A stretch of DNA of 64,000 nucleotides from an uncultured Elusimicrobiales bacterium (GTDB lineage Bacteria; Elusimicrobiota; Elusimicrobia; Elusimicrobiales; Elusimicrobiaceae): contig CALUXB010000002.1 in NCBI GenBank assembly GCA_944324645.1, forward strand, positions 186,001 to 250,000, given 5' to 3'. Under the pieces are notes generated by a model. It had not been told where the DNA came from and did no database searches. It saw only the letters and a list, made by a program, of their open reading frames with translations. Shown here one piece after another: positions 1 through 53,459 of the stretch; within the stretch, counting starts at the first letter, position 1, and the number at the start of each line of letters is the position of its first letter. The translations under genes and the position numbers were made by a program.

Positions 1-547
1 GCGCCGCCACCACCGGCGTATCAGGCCCCAATGTCTGCGCAATTAGCTGAAGCAGTCTAATCACGCGAAACGGCGACTCATATACAATGACCGGATGTTC
101 TTGCCCGTAAGCGGCGCCAAGCAATTTGGCAGCTTTGCCATTTTTGCGCGGCAGAAACCCTAAAAAGGTAAAAGCTCCGCCGGTAAATCCCGCCCCGGCC
201 AATGCACAGGCAACCGCGCTGGGCCCGGGCAGCGAAGTAATAGGCAGGCCCTCTGCGGCGGCGGCCTTAACCAACTTCCACCCCGGGTCTGAAATACAGG
301 GCGTGCCGCAGTCCGACACCAAAGCGCAATGCTTGCCCTGCTTTAAAAGTTCTAGACAACGGCGCACGGAAGCGTCGTCGTTTTCATTGTAACGCACTGT
401 GGGCTTAGAAATGCCAAAATGCGTCAGCAAAATCTGGGTGCGGCGTGTGTCCTCACACAGCACACAATCCACGCTTTTAAGCGTATCCAGCGCGCGCAGC
501 GTAATATCCTGCAAGTTCCCCAGCGGGGTAGGTACGATAGAAAGCAT
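1..547 (-). CDS. rsmI: 16S rRNA 2'-O-ribose C1402 methyltransferase RsmI (3' part beyond window)
   Basis: Reverse translation from ATG 547..545 begins MLSIVPTPLGNLQDITLRAL and continues with LCEDTRRTQILLTHFGI, then SDCGTPCISDPG and LPGPSAVACALAGAGF. This is the order of conserved blocks in the SAM-dependent tetrapyrrole-methylase fold of RsmI, which methylates C1402 of 16S rRNA with RsmH. About 182 residues are visible and the C-terminal part lies outside the window. No SD is present. A -10-like TATACT ends exactly six bases before the ATG, so the message is probably leaderless. It is transcribed divergently from rsfS. Confidence 0.93.
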   Translation of the reverse strand, partial: MLSIVPTPLGNLQDITLRALDTLKSVDCVLCEDTRRTQILLTHFGISKPTVRYNENDDASVRRCLELLKQGKHCALVSDCGTPCISDPGWKLVKAAAAEGLPITSLPGPSAVACALAGAGFTGGAFTFLGFLPRKNGKAAKLLGAAYGQEHPVIVYESPFRVIRLLQLIAQTLGPDTPVVAA

Positions 548-649: not shown

Positions 650-1234
650 ATGGAGAAAAAAGAAATTGCCTTTTTGGCGGCCCGCTACGCAGATGAAAAA
701 AAGGCCGAAAATATTAAAGTGATAGATTTAAATGGCCTGTCTTCGCTGTGTGACTATATTGTGCTGGCCACCGTTACGTCTAAACCGCATATGGAAGCGG
801 TGGAAGATGAAATCAGCACCCAACTCAAAAAAATCGGCGTTTATAAATCAAACCGCGACGGCGGCGAAAGTATGATTTGGCGCGTGTCCGATTACGGGTC
901 TTTTTTGGTGCATATTATGACTCAAGAAGCCCGCGATTTTTATGCGTTGGACAAAATCTTCAGCTTCGGTACGGAATTGAATTACAAAAAGCCCAAAGCA
1001 ACTAAAAAACCGACGGCAAAAAAGACCGCCGCCAAAAAAACCGCTTCTAAAAAAACCGCGCCGAAAAAAGCGGTCTCCAAAGCCGACGCTAAAAAAACAG
1101 CTAAAAAATCCGCCGCTAAAAAAACTACAACGAAAGCGACGGCTAAAAAAACAACCCAAACTTCCGCCAAAAAAGCGGCACCTAAAAAGACCGCCAAAGC
1201 GACGAAGAAATCCACAAAAAAAGGTGCCAAATAA
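650..1234 (+). CDS. rsfS: Ribosomal silencing factor RsfS with a histone-like Lys/Ala tail
   Basis: Residues 1-112 form a complete RsfS/Iojap domain (DLNGLSSLCDYIVLATVTS, then WRVSDYGSFLVHIM). RsfS binds uL14 on the 50S subunit and blocks subunit joining when nutrients are short. The family usually ends near here, but this protein continues with about 80 residues made almost only of K, A, T, P and S in AAKKTAxKK-type repeats, like histone H1 or chlamydial Hc1 tails. The ATG at 650 is preferred over a GTG at 644 because GAGG stands five bases upstream. argS follows after 3 bases, so the two are cotranscribed. The tail may bind rRNA or DNA; that is inference. Confidence 0.92.
   Translation: MEKKEIAFLAARYADEKKAENIKVIDLNGLSSLCDYIVLATVTSKPHMEAVEDEISTQLKKIGVYKSNRDGGESMIWRVSDYGSFLVHIMTQEARDFYALDKIFSFGTELNYKKPKATKKPTAKKTAAKKTASKKTAPKKAVSKADAKKTAKKSAAKKTTTKATAKKTTQTSAKKAAPKKTAKATKKSTKKGAK
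992..1231 (+). repeat. Lys/Ala/Thr-rich low-complexity tail of RsfS
   Basis: Degenerate in-frame repeats of AAA-rich lysine codons and GCC/ACC codons encode (A/T/S)KK(T/S)A units. The tract is prone to slippage and produces long spurious antisense frames. Confidence 0.85.
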
Positions 1235-1237
1235 ACT

Positions 1238-2830
1238 ATGTTTGACCATTTAAAAAAAGAAATTGAATTAAAACTTTCCAGCGCGCCCGTTTTTACCGGT
1301 GCGGCTTTGCCGGCGGTGGAATTTTCCCCCGCACCGGAACATACTGGGGCAGATTTGTCTTTAAACTGGGCTATGTCTGCTGCCAAAGTGTTACACAAAA
1401 ACCCAATGGAAATTGCCAAACAGGCTGTGGTGCTTTTGCGCGAAGTCAACGGAGTGGAAGATGCCACCGTGGCTGCCCCCGGATTTATTAATATCCGCCT
1501 GGAAGAGGCCTTTATTATTGCCGCCGCCAAAGACCGCCGCATCAAAGAAAACAGCCACGGCTACGGCGCCAAAAACAAAATTTTAATTGAATTTGTATCC
1601 GCTAACCCCACCGGCCCGCTGCACGTAGCTTCCGGACGCGGCGCGGCGCTGGGTGACAGCTTGGTGCGCATTCACCGCGCGCTGGGCTATTTATGCGACA
1701 GCGAATATTACGTCAACGACGCAGGCAATCAAGCCCAGCTGCTGGCCGAATCTTTAAAAGCCCGCATTGAGGGCAAAGAACCGCCGGAGAATGGCTACCA
1801 CGGCTCTTATCTGATTGAAATGGCCAAAAAAGCGCCCAAAGATTTACAAGAAAAAGACTATGGCAAATGGGCTATGGAGTACCTGATTAAAACCCAGCAA
1901 GAAGATATGGAAGCCTTCCGCGTTCAGTTCACCCGCTGGTTTCGTGAATCAGAACTGCATCAAGAAGGGGCTGTGGAAGCGGCGCTGAAAAATTTGGAAG
2001 ACAACGGCTACGCCTACAAAAAGGACGATGCCGTCTGGTTTGGCTCCACCAAAGACAAGGAAGCCAAAGACGATAAAGACCGCGTCTTGGTGCGCACCGA
2101 CGGACGGCCCACCTATTTCTTGGCCGATATCGCCTACCACAAAAATAAATACGACCGCGGCTACAGCACGCTGGTGGACATTTTAGGAGCAGACCATCAC
2201 GGCTATGTTCCCCGTATGAAAGCGGCGGTACACGCTTTGGGTAAAGAAGAAAAATCTTTTGTACCTATTATTCACCAGTTGGTGCATCTATTAGACAACG
2301 GCGAACAGGTCAAGATGTCCAAACGCGCCGGCAAATTTATTACCTTGCGCGAACTGGTGGACGATGTGGGGGCAGACGCCTGCCGCTTTTTCTTTGCAAG
2401 CCGCACACCCAATGCGCAGATGACATTTGACATTGAACTGGCCAAAAAACAATCCAACGAAAACCCGGTTTATTATGTGCAATATGTGCACGCGCGTATT
2501 CATTCCATTTTTGCGGCCGCAGCAGAAAAAGGCCTTGCGCCGGAGGATATTATTACCCCGCTGGCCCCGCAGGAACGCGCCTTGCTGCTGAAACTGGTGT
2601 GGTTTAAACCCATCTTGCAAAACTGCTTGCGCGATATGAGTCCGCACCATTTAACCACCTATTTGACGGAACTGGCTGGGCTGTTTCACTCATTTTATGA
2701 CTCGTGCCGTGTTATTGACGAAAACAACCTGCCGCAGACGCGTTCGCGCCTGTTCATCTGCCAACGGGTGGCGGAACGTATTAAAAAAGGATTGGAATTT
2801 TTGGGCGTCAGCGCGCCGGAAAAGATGTAA
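1238..2830 (+). CDS. argS: Arginyl-tRNA synthetase
   Basis: 530 residues with the full class I ArgRS layout: an N-terminal Add-1-like region, SANPTGPLHVASGRGAALGD at the ATP site, DILGADHHGYVPRMKAA, and the KMSKR loop QVKMSKRAGKFITLREL, followed by an anticodon-binding helical domain ending in the ArgRS-like RLFICQRVAERIKKGLEFLG. It charges tRNA-Arg in the cytoplasm. The HIGH signature is HVAS here; non-canonical versions occur in other ArgRS lineages. The start codon lies 3 bases after rsfS, and a terminator follows. Confidence 0.97.
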   Translation: MFDHLKKEIELKLSSAPVFTGAALPAVEFSPAPEHTGADLSLNWAMSAAKVLHKNPMEIAKQAVVLLREVNGVEDATVAAPGFINIRLEEAFIIAAAKDRRIKENSHGYGAKNKILIEFVSANPTGPLHVASGRGAALGDSLVRIHRALGYLCDSEYYVNDAGNQAQLLAESLKARIEGKEPPENGYHGSYLIEMAKKAPKDLQEKDYGKWAMEYLIKTQQEDMEAFRVQFTRWFRESELHQEGAVEAALKNLEDNGYAYKKDDAVWFGSTKDKEAKDDKDRVLVRTDGRPTYFLADIAYHKNKYDRGYSTLVDILGADHHGYVPRMKAAVHALGKEEKSFVPIIHQLVHLLDNGEQVKMSKRAGKFITLRELVDDVGADACRFFFASRTPNAQMTFDIELAKKQSNENPVYYVQYVHARIHSIFAAAAEKGLAPEDIITPLAPQERALLLKLVWFKPILQNCLRDMSPHHLTTYLTELAGLFHSFYDSCRVIDENNLPQTRSRLFICQRVAERIKKGLEFLGVSAPEKM

Positions 2831-2929: not shown

Positions 2930-5900
2930 ATGAAAAAAATCATTCTACTGGTATTGTGCCTGTTGCCGGCTGCTGTGTGGGCTCAAAACCGCCAAGCGGC
3001 AGACGCCGCCTATGAAAACGGCCGTTTTGCAGAAGCCCAACAATACTACCAGCAAGAGTTAAAAACCGCCAAAGGCGAAAATCTCTACGAAGTGCAACTT
3101 CGGCTGATTGCCAGCCAATATATGCAAGGCAAATACCAAGCCGCCGCGGAAAGCGCTTTTACGTTTGATTTGCCAAAAAACCCGCTGTGGAAAGCGCGCT
3201 TCCTACTTTACCGGGTGCAAACGGCCCAGCGCGTCAGCGAAATATATGCCCCCGTTTTGCCCTCCTCTGACCAGGAAGCCCCCTCCCTTCCCCAATTAAG
3301 CAAAGCTCAATGGAATGAAAAAATTGACCAAAGCTACGAAGCGCTTTGGGATTTGCGCACTTTCTTATTAAACGCCCCCATTGAGAAAGAGACCCTCATT
3401 TTAAATCTGCAGGACACAGACCAAAAAGCCATTCCCACGCTGTTTGATTTTGTGGTACTGCAATGGAAAGAGCGGCTGCTGTCCTCCCCGGCTGCCGCCC
3501 CGCTGCGCGCCGCCGATGTATTGACCTCCGACTATAAGAGCCCTGCCCAAGCAAAAAACGACGCCCAAAAAGCCGTTTCCCTCTTGGCAGAGGCCGCCGC
3601 TTTGGGCGGCAAAGGCCGCGCCAACGCGCGTATCATATGGGAAGCGCAACGCCTGGCCCTGCCTTTTGAACAGCCCCATTTGTTTAGCTTTGAAAACAAA
3701 GATAAACAAACGCTGCAAGCGGCGCAACTGCTGCAGGAGCTGGCTGGTTTTTCCGCCGAGAAGAAAAGTTTTTTAGCTAAAATCAGCCAAGCGCTGCTCT
3801 CTTCTGGGGCCTCCTATGGCAAAGCGTACGCCGCATTGCAGGCGGCTTATTTATTAAACCAAGCCGAAGAATATGCTCAGGCCGTTTCCGTATGCGATTA
3901 TGCGGCCCAGCTGTCCGGCAGTGGTTACTACGGGCAAGCCTGCGCCGATTTTGCCCGGGGCATACGGGAACCTTCTTTATCTATAGAGCCGCTTGCCTCC
4001 AGCCAAAACCTGGCGGAAGGAAAAATTTCTTTCACGGCCCGTAATATAGACAAAGTATATGCGCGCATTTATTCCGCCAGCGAAGCCGACCTGCGCAAAT
4101 GGTATAAAGCCGAGCATCAGGGCACCATCAATTCTTGGCGTTATTTAACGTCTGTTCCTGCCAGCCAAATCCCGGAGATTTTACAGCGCACTTCCGTAGG
4201 GGAAGCTGACATAGCGCTTTCATACGAAAAACCCCACGCATTTAAAAAAGCAGACCTCAAACTGCCGGCCTTAAATAAACGTGGTTTTTATGTTGTATTG
4301 TTGTCTTACGACCAAAACTTTGATCCCAACCAAGCCCCGGTGCAAGCCTTAGTGCTTAACCACACGGAGCTGGCCTTATTCGCTTCCGCCGCCATAGAAG
4401 GCAACCCGGCGGATTATTATACGCGCCAAAGCAAAACTTTGACGCCTAATGTGTTTCGCATTTATGCGCTGAATTTAAAAACAGGGGAACCGGTAGCCGG
4501 CGCAGACATAACCTATTATACCGACTGGAAAGGAAACACAGAAAATGGACAAACCAATGAAAACGGCTTGCTGGCGCTGCAACGCAAAATCCAGGTTAAT
4601 ACCAATCAGTCCAACAGCTATTTTATTTCGCCTAAAGCGGTTAAAGAAGACAGTACGGCCTTTATGCCTTCGGCCTTATATTTTAATTATTATGCGGCCT
4701 CTCCTTTCACTCTTTATGCCGAAACAGACCGCGCCATTTACCGCCCGGGCCAAAAAGTCCAGTTGGCGGTGTATGGTTTTGAAAAAACGGGCCGCGGGCT
4801 TCAAACTATGGATGAGGGCACCCCGCTGTACCTGATTATACGCGACGCTAATTACGACAAAGTCTATCAAAGCAACCTCACGCTCAACACCTACGGCACA
4901 GCCCAGGCGGCTTTTACGCTGCCAGACACCGGCCTGTTGGGATATTATTCAGCAGAAATAAGCTATAAACTGGCCCAAAAAACCGTTCGCACCTATGCCA
5001 ATTTCCGGGTAGATGAATATAAACGCCCGGAATATCAAATCACCCTTTCAGACGCAGCCAAACTGCAGTATGACAAAGAAGCCACCATATCGGGCCAGGC
5101 CCAGTATTATTTTGGGGCACCCTTGGAGAAAGCAACCGTTGCTTATACTGTGCACCGCACCTATTTCCGGCCGCCTTTTTGGTGGTGGCGCGGAGGCAAT
5201 TTCCCTGTTGGAAATGAATTTGTAGCGGAAGGAAAAACAGCTACAGATAAAAATGGAAATTTTGAAATCAAATTTACACCGATGCCCGGGCAGGATAACG
5301 GCTTCCCCAGCGTATTTACGGTACACGCCTCTGTAATGGACGCTTCGGGCCGCGTCATTGAAACACAACACGCTTACAAAGCCAGCCGCAAGGCCCTGTT
5401 TTTCCAGGTATCTTTTGACAAAGGTTTTTACGACGCACAAACCCCCAGCCCGCTGGCCCGGGTTAACCTAACCGATGTGAACGGACAAAACACCAGCGGC
5501 AAATTTACGGCAGAGATTTACGAATTGGAAAACACGTTGTCTCCCGCCGAAGACCAAGAATTTGATATGCCGGCCTCTGGCAAAACCGCTTTGGAAACGC
5601 TTTATGCCAAAAACAAAGAACTGCGCCGGGTGTCAAAGCAATCCTTCTCCGTCAAAAAAGACGAAGATACCACCCTGCGCATAGCCGCACTGCCCGAAGG
5701 CATTTATAAGCTCAAACTGCAAAGCAAAAATGCAGACGATGTGGAACTGGTGTTTTTGGTGGCGGAAAAACAATCTAAGCTGCAGCTGCCCGCCGTGGCA
5801 ATTGCCCAGCACGACTCTTATTTCCCGGGTACGCAAGCCAAAATTTTAATTGGCGCGCAAGCACTCACCGGGGCCAAGCGCATTGAAGTGTATAATGACG

Positions 5901-8851
5901 GAAACTTCCTGGCTGCGCGGGAGCTGATTGGCCCGGGAGCGGGCATTTACTCGCTGCCCATACAAAATGAATGGCGCGGCGGAGTTTATCTGCGCTGGTT
6001 CGGCGCGGGCGATTACCGCTTCTATACCGCCCAGACCTTTATTGACGTGCCTTTTGACAACAAAGAACTGTCTTTGACGGCGCAGATACCTGCCGAAGTA
6101 AAACCCGGTCAAAAGGTGTCTTGGACATTAAACGCCAAAAATGCTTCCGGCGCACCGGTACAAGGGCAGGCCTCTGTACGAATGTATGATAAATCCTTAG
6201 ATTATTATGCTTCTTCTGCCCAAAGCGTATTGTCTTTAGACAAACTCTACCCCTCGCCTGCTTTTGGGGCCGCGCTTTCGGACAGCGGTTTTACCGTGTT
6301 TTCTTCTATGCTCTATGAAAAACCGCAAACCGATGAACAAGACAGATTAGCCGCTCCTATACTCCCGCAGCTTAATTTGCAACCCCGCTTTTTCTCCTAT
6401 TCCACAGCCAGAGGCGGTGGAGCTATAATGCAAAAAGCAATGCTTACGGCAGCACCTGTGGCTAATGATATGCTTGCTCGTGACGCCGTGGCAACGGAGG
6501 AAGAAGCCGCCGTGGCGGGTGCCAGCGCCGACAGCGCCGCTGCAGAAAGCGCTGCCACCGCTTCCGCCCAAGCCCCCCGCACGGACTTTTCGGAAACGGC
6601 CTACTTTAACCCTATGCTGCCGCTGCAAGGCGGAAAAGGAACGATGTCTTTCACTCTGCCGCAAAGTCTGACCTCTTGGAACATCATCGGCTTTGCCTTA
6701 ACAAAAAATGCGGACTTCGGTTCCTTTACCGCCCAGACCGTTACGCGCAAAGAGCTGATGGTACGCCTGGCGCTGCCGCGTTTCTGGCGCGAAGGGGACC
6801 AAAGCACTTTGGTAGCCCAAGTGACCAATCTAACTGGTAAAAAACGTTCTGCGGAAGTAACGCTGGACATACTGCTTAATAACCAAGACGCCTCCGCCCA
6901 GCTGGGTATAGAAAAACGCACCCAAAGCGTTTCTGTACCGGCCGGCGGTACGACGGAAGTAAGCTGGCCCGTTACCCTGCCGCAAGGCGTAGGCATTTTT
7001 AGTATAACCGCCACCGTGCGCTCCGGGCAGGACGCAGACGCAGAGAAACAGCAAATCCCGCTGCTTCCCGCCAAAGAGCGCTTAGCAGAAAGCACTACTA
7101 TTGCCTTAGACAGCGGACGGGAAACCCTGAAATTAAACAATTTGCTCACACCCGACAGCACACGCCAGGTTTCTTCTGTTACCCTGCGGGTGGACCCGGG
7201 GTTGCTGCTCTCTGTGTTTGAAGCGATGCCGCAGCTGTTAAAACCGCGCCATAATGACGCTTTAAGCATAGCCGACCGCTATGTACCGCTGACGGTAGTC
7301 AACGGGTTTTACAAAACATACCCTATGCTGCAAAACGCCGTGGCCGAACTGCCCAAACGCAACACGCAAAAACCGGTTTGGGACAATCAAGACCCGGCCC
7401 GCTTAATGCTGTTGGAGGAAACCCCCTGGCTGCAAGAGGCCCAGGGCGGCGCCCAGCGCGAAGCTTTCCTGACGGATTTGTTTAATCCTTCTGCTGTGGC
7501 TAAAGCCCGCGCCCAAGCCGAAAAAGAACTGGCTAAATACCAAACTTCTTCCGGCGGATACAGTTGGATGCCCGGCGGGCAGCCCAGCGAATATATTACG
7601 CTGCGTCTGCTGGCTTCTTACGCTGAAGCTCTGCGCTACGGCGGGCAAATCCCGCAAGCGGCGGCCCAAAAAGCTTTAGGCTGGCTGGGCCCGCGCATTG
7701 AGAAAGACCTGCAAGAAGCAGACGCTTCTGCCGCTACAGTGTCTCAAGCTCTGTATGCGGCGTATGTGTTTACCGCTTTCCCGCAGGATTGGGCGGTAGT
7801 CAAACAAACTCCGGTCAAAAATTGGCTGGATTATGCAGACCGGCACGCCCAATACATGACCCCGCTGGGCCAAACCTATGCGGCGGCGGCCTATTACCGG
7901 TTGGGCAAAGGCACCAAAGCGCAGAACTATTTAGACGTGGTGCTTTCCCAAATGAAGACGGACCCGGTCACCGGCTCTTATTTTGCGCCCGAAGCGCAAA
8001 GCTGGCTGTGGTACAACGACACGCTGGCCACCCAAGCCGCCACGCTGCGCACCTTACTGGAAATCCGCCCGGAATCCGACAAAGCGCAAGGGCTGGTAAA
8101 ATGGCTGCTTTTCAACCGCCAGGCCCAAGTCTGGGACAGCTCCGCCGCTACGGCAGAGGCCGTTTATGCACTGCTTGATTATATGAAACGCAACGGCCTT
8201 TTAGACGACCCGGCTGAATATACGCTGAACTGGGGCGACACCAAAAAGACTTTCCATTTTGAGCCATTTGACTGGAGTGAGCAACTCTCTTGGACACAAG
8301 AGGCCCAAAATGTGGACAGCCGCTACTACAGCGCCACCGTTACTAAACGCGGCGGTCTGACGGGTTTTGTCACCCTGGACGCGGTATACACCACCGCACA
8401 GGCCCAAAAATCGCCGGAAGGGGTGCTCAATATTCAGCGCGAATATTTACTCAAATATACTGAAAATGGACGCGAAAAAGTGCGCGCCTTACAGCCCGGT
8501 GAAGCGGTGCCCGTTGGCAGTGAAATAGAAGTGCGTTTGACGCTGGACGCTTCTTCTGCGTTTGACTTTGTGGTCCTCTCCGACCCCAAGCCCGCCGGCT
8601 TTGAAAGCACCGAGCTGTTAAGCGGCTGGAGCTACGACGTATTAAGCATCTACCGCGAAAACCGCGACGCAGCCACCCACTTCTTCTTAGACCGCGTCCC
8701 CGCCGGCACCTATACCCTACGCTACAGCCTGCGCCCTACATTGGGCGGCAGCTACCACGCGCTGCCGGCGCAAGTGCAGTCTATGTATGCACCGCAATTT
8801 TCCGCACATACAGGCTCGGTCCAGCTGCAGGTGCAGCCGCAGGAAGATTAG
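2930..8851 (+). CDS. Bacterial alpha-2-macroglobulin family protein, thioester-less
   Basis: 1973 residues. A signal peptide (MKKIILLVLCLLPAAVWA) is cleaved before Q20 and has no lipobox. Residues 20-330 look TPR-like (AADAAYENGRFAEAQQYYQQ). An MG2 domain follows (FTLYAETDRAIYRPGQKVQL, about residue 600), then further MG domains, an Ala/Glu-rich linker near 1190-1220, the A2M domain (SWNIIGFALTKNADFGSFTA) and an alpha/alpha-toroid with LLASYAEALRYGGQ-type helices. The thioester motif CxEQ, expected before the toroid, is absent; that position reads KPRHNDALSIADRY. These proteins are thought to trap or inhibit proteases in the periplasm. No pbpC neighbour is seen. A GGAGGAG SD precedes the ATG, and terminators on both sides make it monocistronic. 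Confidence 0.93.
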   Translation: MKKIILLVLCLLPAAVWAQNRQAADAAYENGRFAEAQQYYQQELKTAKGENLYEVQLRLIASQYMQGKYQAAAESAFTFDLPKNPLWKARFLLYRVQTAQRVSEIYAPVLPSSDQEAPSLPQLSKAQWNEKIDQSYEALWDLRTFLLNAPIEKETLILNLQDTDQKAIPTLFDFVVLQWKERLLSSPAAAPLRAADVLTSDYKSPAQAKNDAQKAVSLLAEAAALGGKGRANARIIWEAQRLALPFEQPHLFSFENKDKQTLQAAQLLQELAGFSAEKKSFLAKISQALLSSGASYGKAYAALQAAYLLNQAEEYAQAVSVCDYAAQLSGSGYYGQACADFARGIREPSLSIEPLASSQNLAEGKISFTARNIDKVYARIYSASEADLRKWYKAEHQGTINSWRYLTSVPASQIPEILQRTSVGEADIALSYEKPHAFKKADLKLPALNKRGFYVVLLSYDQNFDPNQAPVQALVLNHTELALFASAAIEGNPADYYTRQSKTLTPNVFRIYALNLKTGEPVAGADITYYTDWKGNTENGQTNENGLLALQRKIQVNTNQSNSYFISPKAVKEDSTAFMPSALYFNYYAASPFTLYAETDRAIYRPGQKVQLAVYGFEKTGRGLQTMDEGTPLYLIIRDANYDKVYQSNLTLNTYGTAQAAFTLPDTGLLGYYSAEISYKLAQKTVRTYANFRVDEYKRPEYQITLSDAAKLQYDKEATISGQAQYYFGAPLEKATVAYTVHRTYFRPPFWWWRGGNFPVGNEFVAEGKTATDKNGNFEIKFTPMPGQDNGFPSVFTVHASVMDASGRVIETQHAYKASRKALFFQVSFDKGFYDAQTPSPLARVNLTDVNGQNTSGKFTAEIYELENTLSPAEDQEFDMPASGKTALETLYAKNKELRRVSKQSFSVKKDEDTTLRIAALPEGIYKLKLQSKNADDVELVFLVAEKQSKLQLPAVAIAQHDSYFPGTQAKILIGAQALTGAKRIEVYNDGNFLAARELIGPGAGIYSLPIQNEWRGGVYLRWFGAGDYRFYTAQTFIDVPFDNKELSLTAQIPAEVKPGQKVSWTLNAKNASGAPVQGQASVRMYDKSLDYYASSAQSVLSLDKLYPSPAFGAALSDSGFTVFSSMLYEKPQTDEQDRLAAPILPQLNLQPRFFSYSTARGGGAIMQKAMLTAAPVANDMLARDAVATEEEAAVAGASADSAAAESAATASAQAPRTDFSETAYFNPMLPLQGGKGTMSFTLPQSLTSWNIIGFALTKNADFGSFTAQTVTRKELMVRLALPRFWREGDQSTLVAQVTNLTGKKRSAEVTLDILLNNQDASAQLGIEKRTQSVSVPAGGTTEVSWPVTLPQGVGIFSITATVRSGQDADAEKQQIPLLPAKERLAESTTIALDSGRETLKLNNLLTPDSTRQVSSVTLRVDPGLLLSVFEAMPQLLKPRHNDALSIADRYVPLTVVNGFYKTYPMLQNAVAELPKRNTQKPVWDNQDPARLMLLEETPWLQEAQGGAQREAFLTDLFNPSAVAKARAQAEKELAKYQTSSGGYSWMPGGQPSEYITLRLLASYAEALRYGGQIPQAAAQKALGWLGPRIEKDLQEADASAATVSQALYAAYVFTAFPQDWAVVKQTPVKNWLDYADRHAQYMTPLGQTYAAAAYYRLGKGTKAQNYLDVVLSQMKTDPVTGSYFAPEAQSWLWYNDTLATQAATLRTLLEIRPESDKAQGLVKWLLFNRQAQVWDSSAATAEAVYALLDYMKRNGLLDDPAEYTLNWGDTKKTFHFEPFDWSEQLSWTQEAQNVDSRYYSATVTKRGGLTGFVTLDAVYTTAQAQKSPEGVLNIQREYLLKYTENGREKVRALQPGEAVPVGSEIEVRLTLDASSAFDFVVLSDPKPAGFESTELLSGWSYDVLSIYRENRDAATHFFLDRVPAGTYTLRYSLRPTLGGSYHALPAQVQSMYAPQFSAHTGSVQLQVQPQED

Positions 8852-23344: not shown

Positions 23345-24391
23345 ATGACCAAATCTGTCTGTGCCGCACCCAAAAAACAATCTCTGGATTTTGACGCTTA
23401 CCTAAAAGAGCGCGCCAAACTGGTGGAGAAAAACCTTTCCAAATTTACAGCAAAAATTCCCAACGCGCCCAAAATTTTAACCGACGCAATGGACTATTCC
23501 CTCCAAGCCGGCGGCAAACGCGTGCGCCCCATTTTGGCTATGGCCACCGCCGAAGCCTTTGGCAAAAAAGCGGCCGACGTACTGCCCGCCGCCTGCGCGC
23601 TGGAAATGCTGCACACCTATTCCCTCATTCACGATGATTTGCCCTGTATGGATAACGATGACCTGCGCCGCGGCAAACCCACCAACCACAAAGTGTTTGG
23701 CGAAGACCTGGCCCTGCTGGCCGGCGACGCGCTGCTGACTTATGTGTTTGAAGTATTTGCGCAGAACGGAAAAGTAAAATCCATCGGCGCCGAAAACACC
23801 TTAAACGCCTTGCAAAATTTTGCCCACCGGGCCGGTGCTTCCGGTATGGTAGGAGGCCAAACTGCCGACGTATATGCCGAAGGTATGGGCACGCAGGACG
23901 CCACCAGTGTGCGAGCAGAGAAGCTGAAAAAAACCTCTAAAAAACTGGCCGATAAAAGCCTGCACTATTTTTTGCTGCCCCCTTCTGTTAAAGAAACCAC
24001 GCCGGAAAATGTTCTGCGCTATATTCACGCCAATAAAACCGGCGCACTGATTTGCGCCAGCGTGGAAACAGGCGCTCTGCTGGCGGGTGCCAAAGGGGCC
24101 GATTTAAAACATATTCAAAAATATGCCGAGTGTATCGGCCTGGTGTTTCAAATTGTAGATGATATTTTAGATGTTACGTCCTCGGCCCAGCAGTTGGGCA
24201 AATCCAACAGCGACGCCCAAAACGGCAAGCTGACCTTTGTCAGCCTCTTTGGCTTAGAAGGCAGCCGCAAGCACGCCCAGCTGCTTATTGCCAAAGCGCA
24301 AAAAGCGTTGGATGCGCTTAAAAACGTCAAACGCAAAAACTTGGCCCCGCTCTACGCTATGGCTGAATTTTTTAAGACCCGCACTTATTAA
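23345..24391 (+). CDS. ispA: Polyprenyl (geranyl/farnesyl-type) diphosphate synthase
   Basis: 348 residues of the trans-isoprenyl diphosphate synthase family. The first Asp-rich motif is HDDLPCMDNDDLRRGKPTNH, with the extended DDx4D typical of bacterial FPP/GGPP synthases; the second is FQIVDDILDVT. GGKRVRPIL binds diphosphate. It condenses IPP with allylic diphosphates to make the precursor of quinones and undecaprenyl carriers. AGAGGTGG lies 3 bases before the ATG at 23345; the longer frame from 23309 has no such support. dxs follows after 9 bases, pairing first and later steps of isoprenoid synthesis. Product chain length is not certain. Confidence 0.93.
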   Translation: MTKSVCAAPKKQSLDFDAYLKERAKLVEKNLSKFTAKIPNAPKILTDAMDYSLQAGGKRVRPILAMATAEAFGKKAADVLPAACALEMLHTYSLIHDDLPCMDNDDLRRGKPTNHKVFGEDLALLAGDALLTYVFEVFAQNGKVKSIGAENTLNALQNFAHRAGASGMVGGQTADVYAEGMGTQDATSVRAEKLKKTSKKLADKSLHYFLLPPSVKETTPENVLRYIHANKTGALICASVETGALLAGAKGADLKHIQKYAECIGLVFQIVDDILDVTSSAQQLGKSNSDAQNGKLTFVSLFGLEGSRKHAQLLIAKAQKALDALKNVKRKNLAPLYAMAEFFKTRTY

Positions 24392-24400
24392 GGAGTTTGA

Positions 24401-26272
24401 ATGAAAGTACTGCCCACCGTTAAAACCCCCGCCGATTTACGCAATATTAAGCGCGAGCTGCTGCCGCAGCTATGCCAAGAAATCCGCGAAGAAATTATTA
24501 AAACTACCAGCAAAAATGGGGGCCATTTAGGCTCCAGCTTAGGTGCGGTGGAAATTATTACCGCCCTGCACTATGTGTTTGACACCCCCAAAGACAAACT
24601 GGTGTTTGACACGGGCCACCAGGCCTATGCCCACAAACTGCTGACGGGGCGGCAAGGTAAATTTTCTACCATACGCACCAAAGGGGGACTAAGCGGCTTT
24701 CCTAAACGCAGCGAAAGTAAATATGACGAATTTGGCGTCGGCCACGCCAGCACGGCCCTTTCCGCCGCGCTGGGTATGGCTATTGCGCGCGACCAAAAAA
24801 ATTCCGACGCCAAAATAATCGCTTTGGTGGCAGACGGCGCCCTAACCGGCGGTATGGCTTACGAAGCTATGCAAAACGCCGGTCTGCTGGCTACCGATAT
24901 GCTGGTGATTTTAAACGATAACCAGATGTTTATCTCCAAACGCGTCGGCGCACTGGGGCAATTTTTAACCAAACTGCTGACCAAAAAATACGTCCAACTG
25001 GCGGAAGAAAAAGCCACCAAATTTTTGAAACGTTTTGACGAGCTGGGCAACAACGCCGCCAAACTGGCCAAACGCGCGCGCTCCATTTTATTTCCCGGCA
25101 CCATTTTTGAAGAAATGGGCTTTCGCTATTTTGGTCCCGTCAACGGCAACGACATTGACGCAATGATAGACGTGCTGGAAAGCGTTAAAGACGTCAAGGG
25201 CCCGGTGCTTTTGCACGTGGTAACCAAAAAAGGCAAGGGCTACACCCCGGCGGAAGAAAAACCGACCAAATTTCACGGTATTGGTATGTTTGATGCTGAC
25301 ACCGGCGACACCATTGGCAAAAGCGACCGCATCACCTTTACCAAGGCGTTTTCAGACGCCATCGTCAAACTGGCTAAAGCAGACAAAAAAATCAACGCCA
25401 TCACCGCCGCTATGCCGGAAGGAACGGGGTTGGACGAATTCCGCCACACGTTCCCGCAGCGTTTTTTTGACGTAGGCATTGCCGAAGAGCACGCCGCCAC
25501 TTTTGCCGCCGGTTTAGCCGCGGAAGGGTTAAAACCCGTTGTAGCGGTGTATTCCTCTTTTACACAGCGCTGCTATGACCAAATTGTGCACGATATTGCC
25601 TTGCAAAACCTGCCGGTGGTGTTTGCGCTGGACCGCGCCGGTCTTGTCGGGGAAGACGGCCCCACACACCACGGCGCTTTTGACCTTAGTTTCCTGCGCA
25701 GCACGCCCAACCTGATTATTGCCGCGCCGGCCGATGAAAACGAATTGGGCCATCTGCTCAAAACCGCGCTGGACAGCGGCAAACCTTTCGTCCTGCGCTA
25801 TCCCCGCGGGGCCGGTTTTAATGTGGAAGTGGAAAAAGAATTAAAAGACTTGCCCATCGGCAAAGGGCAGTGGCTTAAAAAAGGCAAAGACCTGACCATA
25901 GTGGCTATCGGCAACCGCGTACACCCCGCGCTGGAAGCGGCACAGCTGCTGAAAGAAAAAGGCATAGACGCAGGCGTCATCAATGCCCGTTTTGTAAAGC
26001 CGTTAGACAGCGCTGTTATAAACGAAGCGTTGAAAGTTTCCCCCCGCCTGGTTACGGTGGAGGACAACGCCCTCTGCGGCGGTTTTGGCTCTGCCGTGGC
26101 GGAGTATCTGACCGGGCAGGACAAGCCCTTTCACCTGCTGCGTTTGGGCTTGCCGGACGAATTTGTAGAACACGGAAAAGTGGCCCAGCTCTATGAGCAG
26201 TTGGGGCTGACACCGGAAAAAATGGCTGAAGAAATCCAGCATTGGAGCAAACGTTATGAAAAAACCCGCTAA
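24401..26272 (+). CDS. dxs: 1-deoxy-D-xylulose-5-phosphate synthase
   Basis: 623 residues. DXS features in order are KNGGHLGSSLGAVEIITALH, FDTGHQAYAHKLLTGR, the ThDP site ALVADGALTGGMAYEAMQNA...ILNDNQMFIS, MPEGTGLDEF, and DVGIAEEHAATFAAGLA with the catalytic Glu, then YSSFTQRCYDQIVHDIA. It condenses pyruvate and glyceraldehyde-3-phosphate, the first step of the MEP isoprenoid pathway. An AAGGAG SD lies upstream. The 3' end overlaps the LOG gene by 17 bases. Confidence 0.97.
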   Translation: MKVLPTVKTPADLRNIKRELLPQLCQEIREEIIKTTSKNGGHLGSSLGAVEIITALHYVFDTPKDKLVFDTGHQAYAHKLLTGRQGKFSTIRTKGGLSGFPKRSESKYDEFGVGHASTALSAALGMAIARDQKNSDAKIIALVADGALTGGMAYEAMQNAGLLATDMLVILNDNQMFISKRVGALGQFLTKLLTKKYVQLAEEKATKFLKRFDELGNNAAKLAKRARSILFPGTIFEEMGFRYFGPVNGNDIDAMIDVLESVKDVKGPVLLHVVTKKGKGYTPAEEKPTKFHGIGMFDADTGDTIGKSDRITFTKAFSDAIVKLAKADKKINAITAAMPEGTGLDEFRHTFPQRFFDVGIAEEHAATFAAGLAAEGLKPVVAVYSSFTQRCYDQIVHDIALQNLPVVFALDRAGLVGEDGPTHHGAFDLSFLRSTPNLIIAAPADENELGHLLKTALDSGKPFVLRYPRGAGFNVEVEKELKDLPIGKGQWLKKGKDLTIVAIGNRVHPALEAAQLLKEKGIDAGVINARFVKPLDSAVINEALKVSPRLVTVEDNALCGGFGSAVAEYLTGQDKPFHLLRLGLPDEFVEHGKVAQLYEQLGLTPEKMAEEIQHWSKRYEKTR

Positions 26273-27086
26273 AAAAGCAAGAATAGCCAGCACAGAACAC
26301 GAAAGCTCATACATCCGGGCTTATGAAGATATTGATTTATTAAACCAGCCGGTTATGCGCCCGGTACGCATTGAACTGGAAGTAATGAAGCCGGAGCTGT
26401 ACCTGCAGGCCAAAAATATTACGCAAAGCATAGTATGCTTTGGCAGTGCACGCGTACGCCCGGAAAAAGAAGCCAAAGCCTTGGTGGCGGCGGCAAAAAA
26501 AGCCTTAGCCAAAAATCCCAAAAATCAACGGCTGCAGGAAAGACTCAGTGAAGCGCAAGGGTTGCTCTCACTGTCTAAATACTATGAAGTGGGGCGGGAG
26601 TTTGCCAAGCTGGTCATTAAAAAAGGCAAAAACCGCTTTGCCGTAGTGACCGGCGGCGGCCCGGGCCTAATGGAAGCGGCCAACCGCGGCGCCTTTGAAA
26701 ACGGCGGCAAAAGCGTGGGCTTTAACATCACCCTGCCGCACGAGCAGCACCCCAACGCCTATATCACCAAAGACCTGGCATTTTTATTTCACTACTTTGC
26801 CATTCGCAAACTGCATTTGGTTATGCGCTCGCGCGCGTTTGTGGTGTTTCCCGGCGGCTATGGCACGTTTGATGAATTGTTTGAAATTTTGACCTTGGTC
26901 AAAACCGGCAAAAAAGAAGAAATCCCCATCATTTTAATCGGCAAAGAATTTTGGAACTCCGTCGTTAATTTCAAGGCGCTGGCCTCGTACGGCGTGATAG
27001 ATAACGACGAAGCCCGCACCTGCCACATTGTAGATACGGCGCAGGAAGCGTGGGACATTATCGCCAAATTCTACAAGATTAAATAG
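26256..27086 (+). CDS. LOG family protein (TIGR00730-type nucleotide phosphoribohydrolase)
   Basis: 276 residues. The LOG core is present: FGSARVRPE, AVVTGGGPGLMEAANRGAF, GFNITLPHEQHPN, and VVFPGGYGTFDELFEILTLV with the PGGxGTxxE active-site motif. Such enzymes hydrolyse nucleoside 5'-monophosphates to base plus ribose-5-phosphate; older annotations say lysine decarboxylase. The Lys-rich N-terminal 40 residues are extra. It starts inside dxs (17-base overlap), so translation is probably coupled. A bidirectional terminator follows. Confidence 0.9.
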   Translation: MKKPAKKARIASTEHESSYIRAYEDIDLLNQPVMRPVRIELEVMKPELYLQAKNITQSIVCFGSARVRPEKEAKALVAAAKKALAKNPKNQRLQERLSEAQGLLSLSKYYEVGREFAKLVIKKGKNRFAVVTGGGPGLMEAANRGAFENGGKSVGFNITLPHEQHPNAYITKDLAFLFHYFAIRKLHLVMRSRAFVVFPGGYGTFDELFEILTLVKTGKKEEIPIILIGKEFWNSVVNFKALASYGVIDNDEARTCHIVDTAQEAWDIIAKFYKIK

Positions 27087-52440: not shown

Positions 52441-53459
52441 ACAACCAAAACGAAGTGTTAGACGTGCGTCAATTAGCCGACGAGTCCAACGGCTTGGAAG
52501 CGGCGCTGCGTCCGGGCACATTGGACGAGTTTGTCGGGCAGGACAAACTTAAAGAAAACCTGCGTATTTTTATCCAGGCGGCCCGCTCCCGCGGCGAAGC
52601 GCTGGACCATTGTTTATTTTATTCCCCCCCGGGCCTGGGCAAAACTACCTTAGCCAATATTTTGGCCAAAGAAATGGGCGTCAATATTAAAACCACCTCC
52701 GGCCCGGTGCTGGCACGCCCCGGGGATTTGGCCGCCATGCTGACGACGGAGCTTTCCGACGGGGACATTTTGTTTGTAGACGAAATACACCGCCTAAACC
52801 CTGCGGTGGAAGAAGCCCTCTACCCTGCGATGGAAGATTTCACTTTCTTTATTAACACCGGCAAAGGCGCAGGCTCTACCACGCTCAAACTGGCGGTGCC
52901 TAAATTTACGCTGGTGGGCGCCACCACCCGCTCCGGGCTGTTGACCGGGCCGCTGCGCGACCGCTTTGGCATTGTATTTAACTTGGGTTTTTACGAGATT
53001 AAAGAAATTACGGATATTTTGGCCCGCTCGGCACGGCTCTTAAACATAGCTGCCGACCGCGAGGGCCTGACGGAGCTGGCCAAACGCTCCCGCGGCACGC
53101 CGCGTATTGCCAACCGCTTGCTGCGCCGCGCGCGCGACTTTGCCCAAGTAAAAGGCCAGGGCGTCATCACGCGCGACATTGCCATTACGGCAATGGACTC
53201 TTTAGACATTGACAGCGAAGGCTTAGACAGCGTAGATAAACGCATTTTGGAAGCGCTCATAGACCGCTTTGGCGGCGGCCCGGTGGGCGTGGACAACCTG
53301 GCTATTGCCGTATCGGAAGCGGTGGACACGCTGACGGACGCCATAGAGCCGTATTTAATTAAAGCGGGCTTTATTGCGCGCACGCCGCGCGGGCGCGTAG
53401 CCACCCAAAGAGCCTACGACCATTTGGGCAGAAAACGCGCAGAAGGCCTGTTGTTTTAA
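52437..53459 (+). CDS. ruvB: Holliday junction helicase RuvB
   Basis: 340 residues. Walker [19 protein letters not shown], Walker [13 protein letters not shown], sensor [19 protein letters not shown] with the arginine finger, then a winged helix ending [19 protein letters not shown]. The AAA+ motor drives branch migration on RuvA. Translationally coupled to ruvA. No terminator is obvious after it. Confidence 0.97.

Follow-up and report, generated by a model that had tools for sequence, protein, structure and literature searches.

Why would a conserved ribosome silencer carry a disordered, positively charged tail most of the length of its own domain? The question is raised by rsfS, which encodes the ribosomal silencing factor RsfS, near the beginning of a 64,000-nucleotide (nt) stretch from an uncultured Elusimicrobiales bacterium (contig CALUXB010000002.1; this whole stretch is the window). 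RsfS is a conserved ribosome silencer that occurs on immature large subunits too. In the window its frame runs on the plus strand from ATG 650 to TAA 1232–1234 and encodes 194 amino acids (aa), with a lysine-rich C-terminal end. As judged from comparison of related genes, this tail is the rule in the order, a real order-wide variant of RsfS that is apparently selected, and it very probably is translated.

A complete RsfS domain with a polybasic tail

The initial annotation of the window regarded the RsfS domain as complete, and profile searches agreed. PF02410 matched residues 10–104 over profile positions 3–98 of 98 (E 1.5e-25, 89.7 bits, cut-off 21.6), and the NCBIfam equivalog TIGR00090 scored 91.6 bits (cut-off 56.9). 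An AlphaFold model, built on an 8-sequence alignment, gave residues 1–110 a predicted local distance difference test score (pLDDT) of 83–96 per 10-residue block. The top Foldseek match of the model was RsfS 4wcw_A (E 1.7e-10, TMt 0.85), and the best matches, all RsfS or RsfS-like, included chains from the S. aureus 50S-RsfS complex, from pre-50S particles, and from mitoribosome assembly intermediates with MALSU1, as well as M. tuberculosis RsfS. The profiles, the model, and the Foldseek matches place the domain at residues 1–108 (650–973, plus strand).

In S. aureus RsfS, W77, D81, and Y98 touch uL14, about 80% of the anti-association activity is lost with Y98A and about 20% with E70A, and mutants of W77 and D81 are insoluble, according to excerpts of PMC9503621; bL19 and H95 of the 23S rRNA are described as part of the RsfS cavity on the 50S subunit in an excerpt of PMC7125091. 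The window RsfS has W77, D81, and Y98, which are found in 100%, 100%, and 98% of 130 sequences from the order. At position 70, where the S. aureus contact is E, it has D, as do 96% of these sequences. By these sequence features, the window protein is an otherwise canonical RsfS with a complete domain.

A short linker (residues 109–114, 974–991, plus strand) leads from the end of the RsfS profile to the start of the K-rich run. The tail itself occupies residues 115–194 (992–1231, plus strand), in agreement with the roughly 80-residue in-frame extension of K, A, T, P, and S that had first been noted at the same coordinates; it consists of nearly these five residues alone, with spaced KK pairs, and is followed by the stop codon TAA (1232–1234, plus strand). 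The last 84 residues of the protein contain 33 K, 20 A, 16 T, 5 S, 4 P, one D, and no E. From residue 121 onward the model has a pLDDT of 51–60 and no secondary structure. Composition and model thus describe a C-terminal polybasic extension that is predicted to be disordered.

Such stretches are rare in the window. Frames of at least 60 aa were scanned for 30-aa stretches that contain 11 or more K/R, no more than one D/E, and 25 or more residues from K, A, T, S, P, V, G, and R, and only the rsfS tail and one R-rich frame on the minus strand (52991–53413) were found.

The tail among relatives

PF02410 was matched in 144 of 150 relatives, with the own genome counted. RsfS was examined in 131 of these 144 and in 50 further genomes of the phylum, 181 in total; the 13 genes that were not fetched comprise 12 of family f2, which belongs to the same order, and one of the window's own family f1 with an internal stop. 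Three of the 181 genes ran off their contig and were excluded from the counts. A tail was counted when it had a length of at least 25 aa and a net charge of at least +8.

The initial annotation had proposed comparing related RsfS proteins for tail presence and length, and held that relatives stopping after residue 112 would indicate a local frameshift or stop loss. The relatives instead read on: the tail was present in 63 of the 64 complete rsfS genes of the same genus (median 71 aa, +26), in 20/21 from other f1 genera, and in 41/42 of family f2. This makes 124 of 127 complete genes in the order, with one gene per genome. Two of the three misses, L017 and L094 from other f1 genera and f2, finish in basic stretches of 20 and 24 aa, slightly below the length limit. 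The third, L030 of the genus, is interrupted at the linker by an in-frame stop, beyond which a full K/A/T tail remains open; in this single fragmented assembly, either the sequence is in error or the tail was lost recently.

Outside the order, the tail was found in 18 of 22 genes of family f15, from another class, and in 2 of 10 from the remaining families of the phylum; these samples, like that of the other families of the class, are mostly the higher-scoring matches and possibly biased. Where the long tail was absent, a short basic end was often present (median net charge +5 and +6 in two groups). The pattern looks like an expansion of the tail in this order and in f15.

Two side observations concern f15. 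The tails of L144, L145, L149, L152, and L160 end in a common, less repetitive basic segment (KAKRTVKAVGKGIEAFxKTL-like) and not in plain K/A/T repeats. Seven f15 genomes of 0.4–0.8 Mb (G206, G210, G216, G218, G221, G232, and G244), rated 76–85% complete, gave no RsfS match, perhaps because the gene was lost as these genomes shrank; RsfS is retained in some f15 genomes of 0.8–1.0 Mb.

Polybasic extensions in other lineages

That RsfS normally lacks such a tail, as was initially stated, holds for the solved bacterial chains matched here (105–152 aa, at most 31 residues past the matched domain) and for two outgroups used as controls, which are not a survey of bacteria: polybasic extensions at either end were found in 0/30 for a Rhodospirillaceae metagenome-assembled genome (MAG) and its relatives (best 30 of 57 loci) and in 0/30 for relatives of a Bdellovibrio MAG (best 30 of 58 loci). 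It does not hold for this order, nor for some genomes elsewhere. Among a Bacteroidia MAG and its relatives (best 20 of 57 matching genomes), 11/20 have an N-terminal and 1/20 a C-terminal polybasic extension. The N-terminal K/A-rich extensions (L191, L196, L199–L202, L205, L207, L208, L211, and L212) are mostly followed by a partly common K/E/A-rich segment. Since such extensions occur at either terminus in different lineages, the trait looks convergent.

The Bdellovibrio MAG relatives (L263–L292) showed an extension of another kind: counted from the first M, RsfS has an in-frame N-terminal extension of 164–241 aa in 30/30 loci. In L266, the only one tested, it matches the nicotinate-nucleotide adenylyltransferase NadD (TIGR00482, E 1.6e-48), an apparent NadD-RsfS fusion.

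Signs of selection on the tail

We next consider which properties of the tail have been kept. In the genus, the charge per residue of the tail has a median of 0.37 (interquartile range 0.35–0.38). D and E together make up 0.16% of the tail core in the genus; their share is 0.9% for other f1 genera, 1.7% for f2, and 5.7% for f15, whereas the domain has 14–16% across groups (16.3% in the genus); the genus tail core has 0.03% aromatic residues.

In 13 close pairs, K was conserved at 95%, A at 79%, T at 71%, S at 65%, P at 64%, and V at 49%. Pairwise alignment inflates the conservation of a frequent residue, so shuffled and gap-free controls were added. Two shuffled controls of the 13 pairs gave 64–65% for K, 50–54% for A, 39–41% for T, 14–20% for S, 17–20% for P, and 26–29% for V; because shuffled K stays high and the others are lower, part of the lead of lysine is alignment bias. 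In the gap-free comparison of four equal-length pairs, the values were 99% for K, 88% for A, 80% for P, and 77% for T. Across 30 pairs, 137 of the 732 shared lysines used different codons (AAA versus AAG), and the lysine sites are therefore not frozen at the DNA level; where K was replaced, T stood opposite it 32 times, A 22 times, R 14 times, and E 6 times. In 20 GC-rich genomes of f2, the tail favours K over R more strongly than the domain, with R/(K+R) at 0.09 against 0.30.

Long runs of A were avoided in the tail DNA. In the 63 genus tails, 6 runs of at least 8 were observed versus 62.2 ± 5.3 under synonymous shuffling, and none of at least 9 versus 25.6 expected; the remaining three groups had 10, 8, and 6 runs of at least 8 versus 27.6, 26.2, and 27.8 expected. 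Runs of at least 6 were close to expectation. Avoidance of long runs is expected if upkeep of the frame matters, and a tendency of coding sequences at large to avoid homopolymers could contribute. At the protein level, KK pairs lie 4–5 residues apart, and K-runs of at least 4 were absent from the 63 genus tails versus about 62 expected by shuffling, with few in other groups. The spacing is weak in f15. It could stem from repeat expansion, yet it persists in f2 despite sequence turnover.

Within the order, then, the sequences compared indicate that tail sequence and length have turned over, whereas charge density, lysines, spaced KK pairs, a low content of acidic residues, and the rarity of long A-runs have been kept. 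The tail is therefore very probably translated and under selection, and we infer that the lysine pattern, rather than any motif, matters.

A putative tether to rRNA and its alternatives

A tether to rRNA or nucleoid had been suggested for the tail at the outset, and it is also the function that we infer. In our judgement it is somewhat probable that the tail acts as a disordered polycation that tethers RsfS to nucleic acid, most likely to rRNA around its site on the 50S subunit. The domain would bind uL14 on the 50S and block bridge B8, like other bacterial RsfS. The tail, of about +26 net charge and 71 aa in the genus median, would leave the domain just past residue 108 and rest nonspecifically on adjacent rRNA, giving electrostatic avidity to a domain that is itself slightly acidic (net charge −3 in the genus median) and prolonging the residence of RsfS on 50S or pre-50S particles, where it may double as an RNA chaperone. 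With a tail of +26 on an acidic domain that docks on a particle made mostly of RNA, extra nonspecific RNA contacts are the simplest expectation. An excerpt of PMC6821194 describes an enrichment of lysine and arginine in the low-complexity regions of prokaryotic proteins that bind DNA or RNA. Like charge at the opposite end of RsfS in the Bacteroidia-related genomes could serve equally.

Several points weigh against the rRNA tether. Its support consists of sequence comparison and a predicted structure, and the composition of the tail would suit DNA equally. The only other match to the tail profile in the genome, a free 69-aa K/A-rich open reading frame (ORF), hints at a nucleoid role. The tail was present in only 5/19 genes from other families of the class, so that RsfS function in general needs no tail, and in 12 GC-rich genomes of these families (mostly short ends) R/(K+R) was 0.60 in the tail versus 0.64 in the domain, with no preference for K. 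The f15 tails, finally, combine the 5.7% of acidic residues with weaker KK spacing.

DNA binding is by analogy the main rival to the rRNA tether, because AlgP and PhaF of Pseudomonas have comparable tails and the genome has the free K/A-rich ORF. The tail would bind DNA like the KPAA tails of these proteins and park RsfS with silenced 50S or pre-50S particles at the nucleoid in starvation; we consider this unlikely but worth serious attention. The regular spacing of KK pairs would fit it, as would the free ORF, an H1-like protein that matches the tail profile weakly (E 0.3) and holds five KKxxKK codon matches. Against it, the RsfS domain acts on the large subunit, where rRNA is far nearer than DNA, and the Pfam HC2 cut-off of 40 is reached neither by the tailed RsfS (18 bits) nor by the free protein (11.9 bits). 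A broader scenario seems rather improbable to us: in starvation the tail would anchor large subunits, whether silenced or immature, to the nucleoid or to a nucleic-acid condensate, much as PhaF and AlgP tether granules, and this solution would have arisen separately at opposite RsfS ends in different phyla.

We regard it as improbable too, to a slightly greater degree, that the tail is a selected polycation with another role, be it binding to polyphosphate or membrane lipids, forming a condensate with RNA, or offering lysines for modification. An excerpt of PMC9239181 associates AlgP with polyphosphate granules, and a K/A/T core with 0.03% aromatics in the genus is compatible with such a target. 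The ppk1 family PF02503 was, however, unmatched in the genome, which is 91% complete (ppk2 was not searched), and membrane lipid, condensate, and modification roles have no direct support.

Near-neutral repeat expansion, by which a harmless low-complexity tail changes its length by slippage, is disfavoured by the sequences and appears highly improbable. In its favour are the wide range of tail lengths, a detectable 15-nt tandem array, and the correlation of tail length with GC content at third codon positions (+0.53 in the genus, +0.48 in f2, +0.69 in f15, and −0.59 in other families of the class). Set against these, K is kept above A, T, S, P, and V, acidic residues are nearly nil in the genus, long A-runs are avoided, KK spacing is kept, K is retained in the GC-rich f2 genomes, and just one of 64 genus genes is shortened.

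A frameshift, a stop loss, or an assembly artefact is refuted by the relatives from different genomes that read through the basic tail, and a stretch kept solely for translational coupling to argS, which lies downstream in 64/66 genus, 21/21 other f1, and 41/43 f2 loci at a median gap of 2–2.5 nt, is rejected in view of f15, where 18/22 genes have tails and 22/22 have no argS in the fetched flank (up to about 1.5 kb); these explanations are hardly credible.

Surroundings of rsfS and related sequences in the genome

A likely Shine-Dalgarno sequence, GAGGTG, lies at 641–646 on the plus strand, 3 nt 5' of ATG 650; an alternative start in the program-made ORF list, GTG 644, overlaps it. Downstream, argS for arginine–tRNA ligase (1238–2830, plus strand; TIGR00456, E 5.7e-118) starts 3 nt past the rsfS stop, so the tail does end just before argS as initially described. 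Upstream, the divergent rsmI for 16S rRNA (cytidine(1402)-2'-O)-methyltransferase (2–547, minus strand; TIGR00096, E 4.4e-52) extends past the window edge. The plus strand at 2930–8851 holds a 1973-aa ORF, with a start resembling a signal peptide, that looks alpha-2-macroglobulin-like. The genome also codes for a protein of the PF02482 hibernation-factor family.

The free ORF (L002:1498–1707; own genome C1:409118–409327) encodes 69 aa of K/A/V/P repeats that include several cysteines (CAKKAC, KKTC); a search with the whole RsfS protein matched it at E 3.6e-4. A genome-wide habit of K/A-rich tails is unsupported, as the tail profile matched just rsfS and this ORF in a search whose first-look filter may miss divergent tails. 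The KKxxKK codon pattern occurs at 33 places in the genome (21 and 12 by strand; 13 and 4 in the reversed control): the free ORF accounts for five and rsfS for two, three are scattered across 2.3 kb of the window (23927–26276), where the frame scan shows no polybasic stretch, and the rest lie elsewhere.

Comparison with known systems

Among the matches listed in open-licence literature, no paper on such an RsfS tail was found by title or abstract opening, nor one linking Elusimicrobi- names with ribosome silencing factor or lysine-rich. The window protein is a polybasic-tailed variant of a known ribosome factor. It shares with the RsfS/Iojap/YbeB family (PF02410, TIGR00090) the full domain, the predicted fold, and the uL14-contact residues, and differs by the added 80-residue C-terminal tail, which is polybasic and predicted to be disordered. 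That a lineage has kept a tail most of the domain's length, with selection on its charge and lysines and not on its sequence, suggests a second activity of RsfS.

The tail was initially called histone-like. Its K/A-rich composition and weak 18-bit profile similarity do recall the histone H1-like Hc2 (PF07382); the score, though, is far below the cut-off of 40, and the tail is joined to RsfS whereas Hc2 is free. AlgP and PhaF bear comparable tails, and KPAA-repeat peptides like those of AlgP bind DNA in vitro, according to excerpts of PMC9239181. Like these proteins of starvation and granule biology, as they appear there, the window protein has a long K/A/P-rich repeat tail, by composition and by prediction of disorder, on a folded protein, a comparison that concerns only how the tails may work; its tail differs in having KK pairs with A/T spacing and more T than P, and in sitting on a ribosome factor. 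The Bacteroidia-related RsfS proteins bear a polybasic low-complexity extension too, but at the N-terminus and with an added, less repetitive segment beside the domain. With lineages that bear it at one end of RsfS or the other, the trait would amount to a natural experiment on the effect of a polycation on a ribosome factor.
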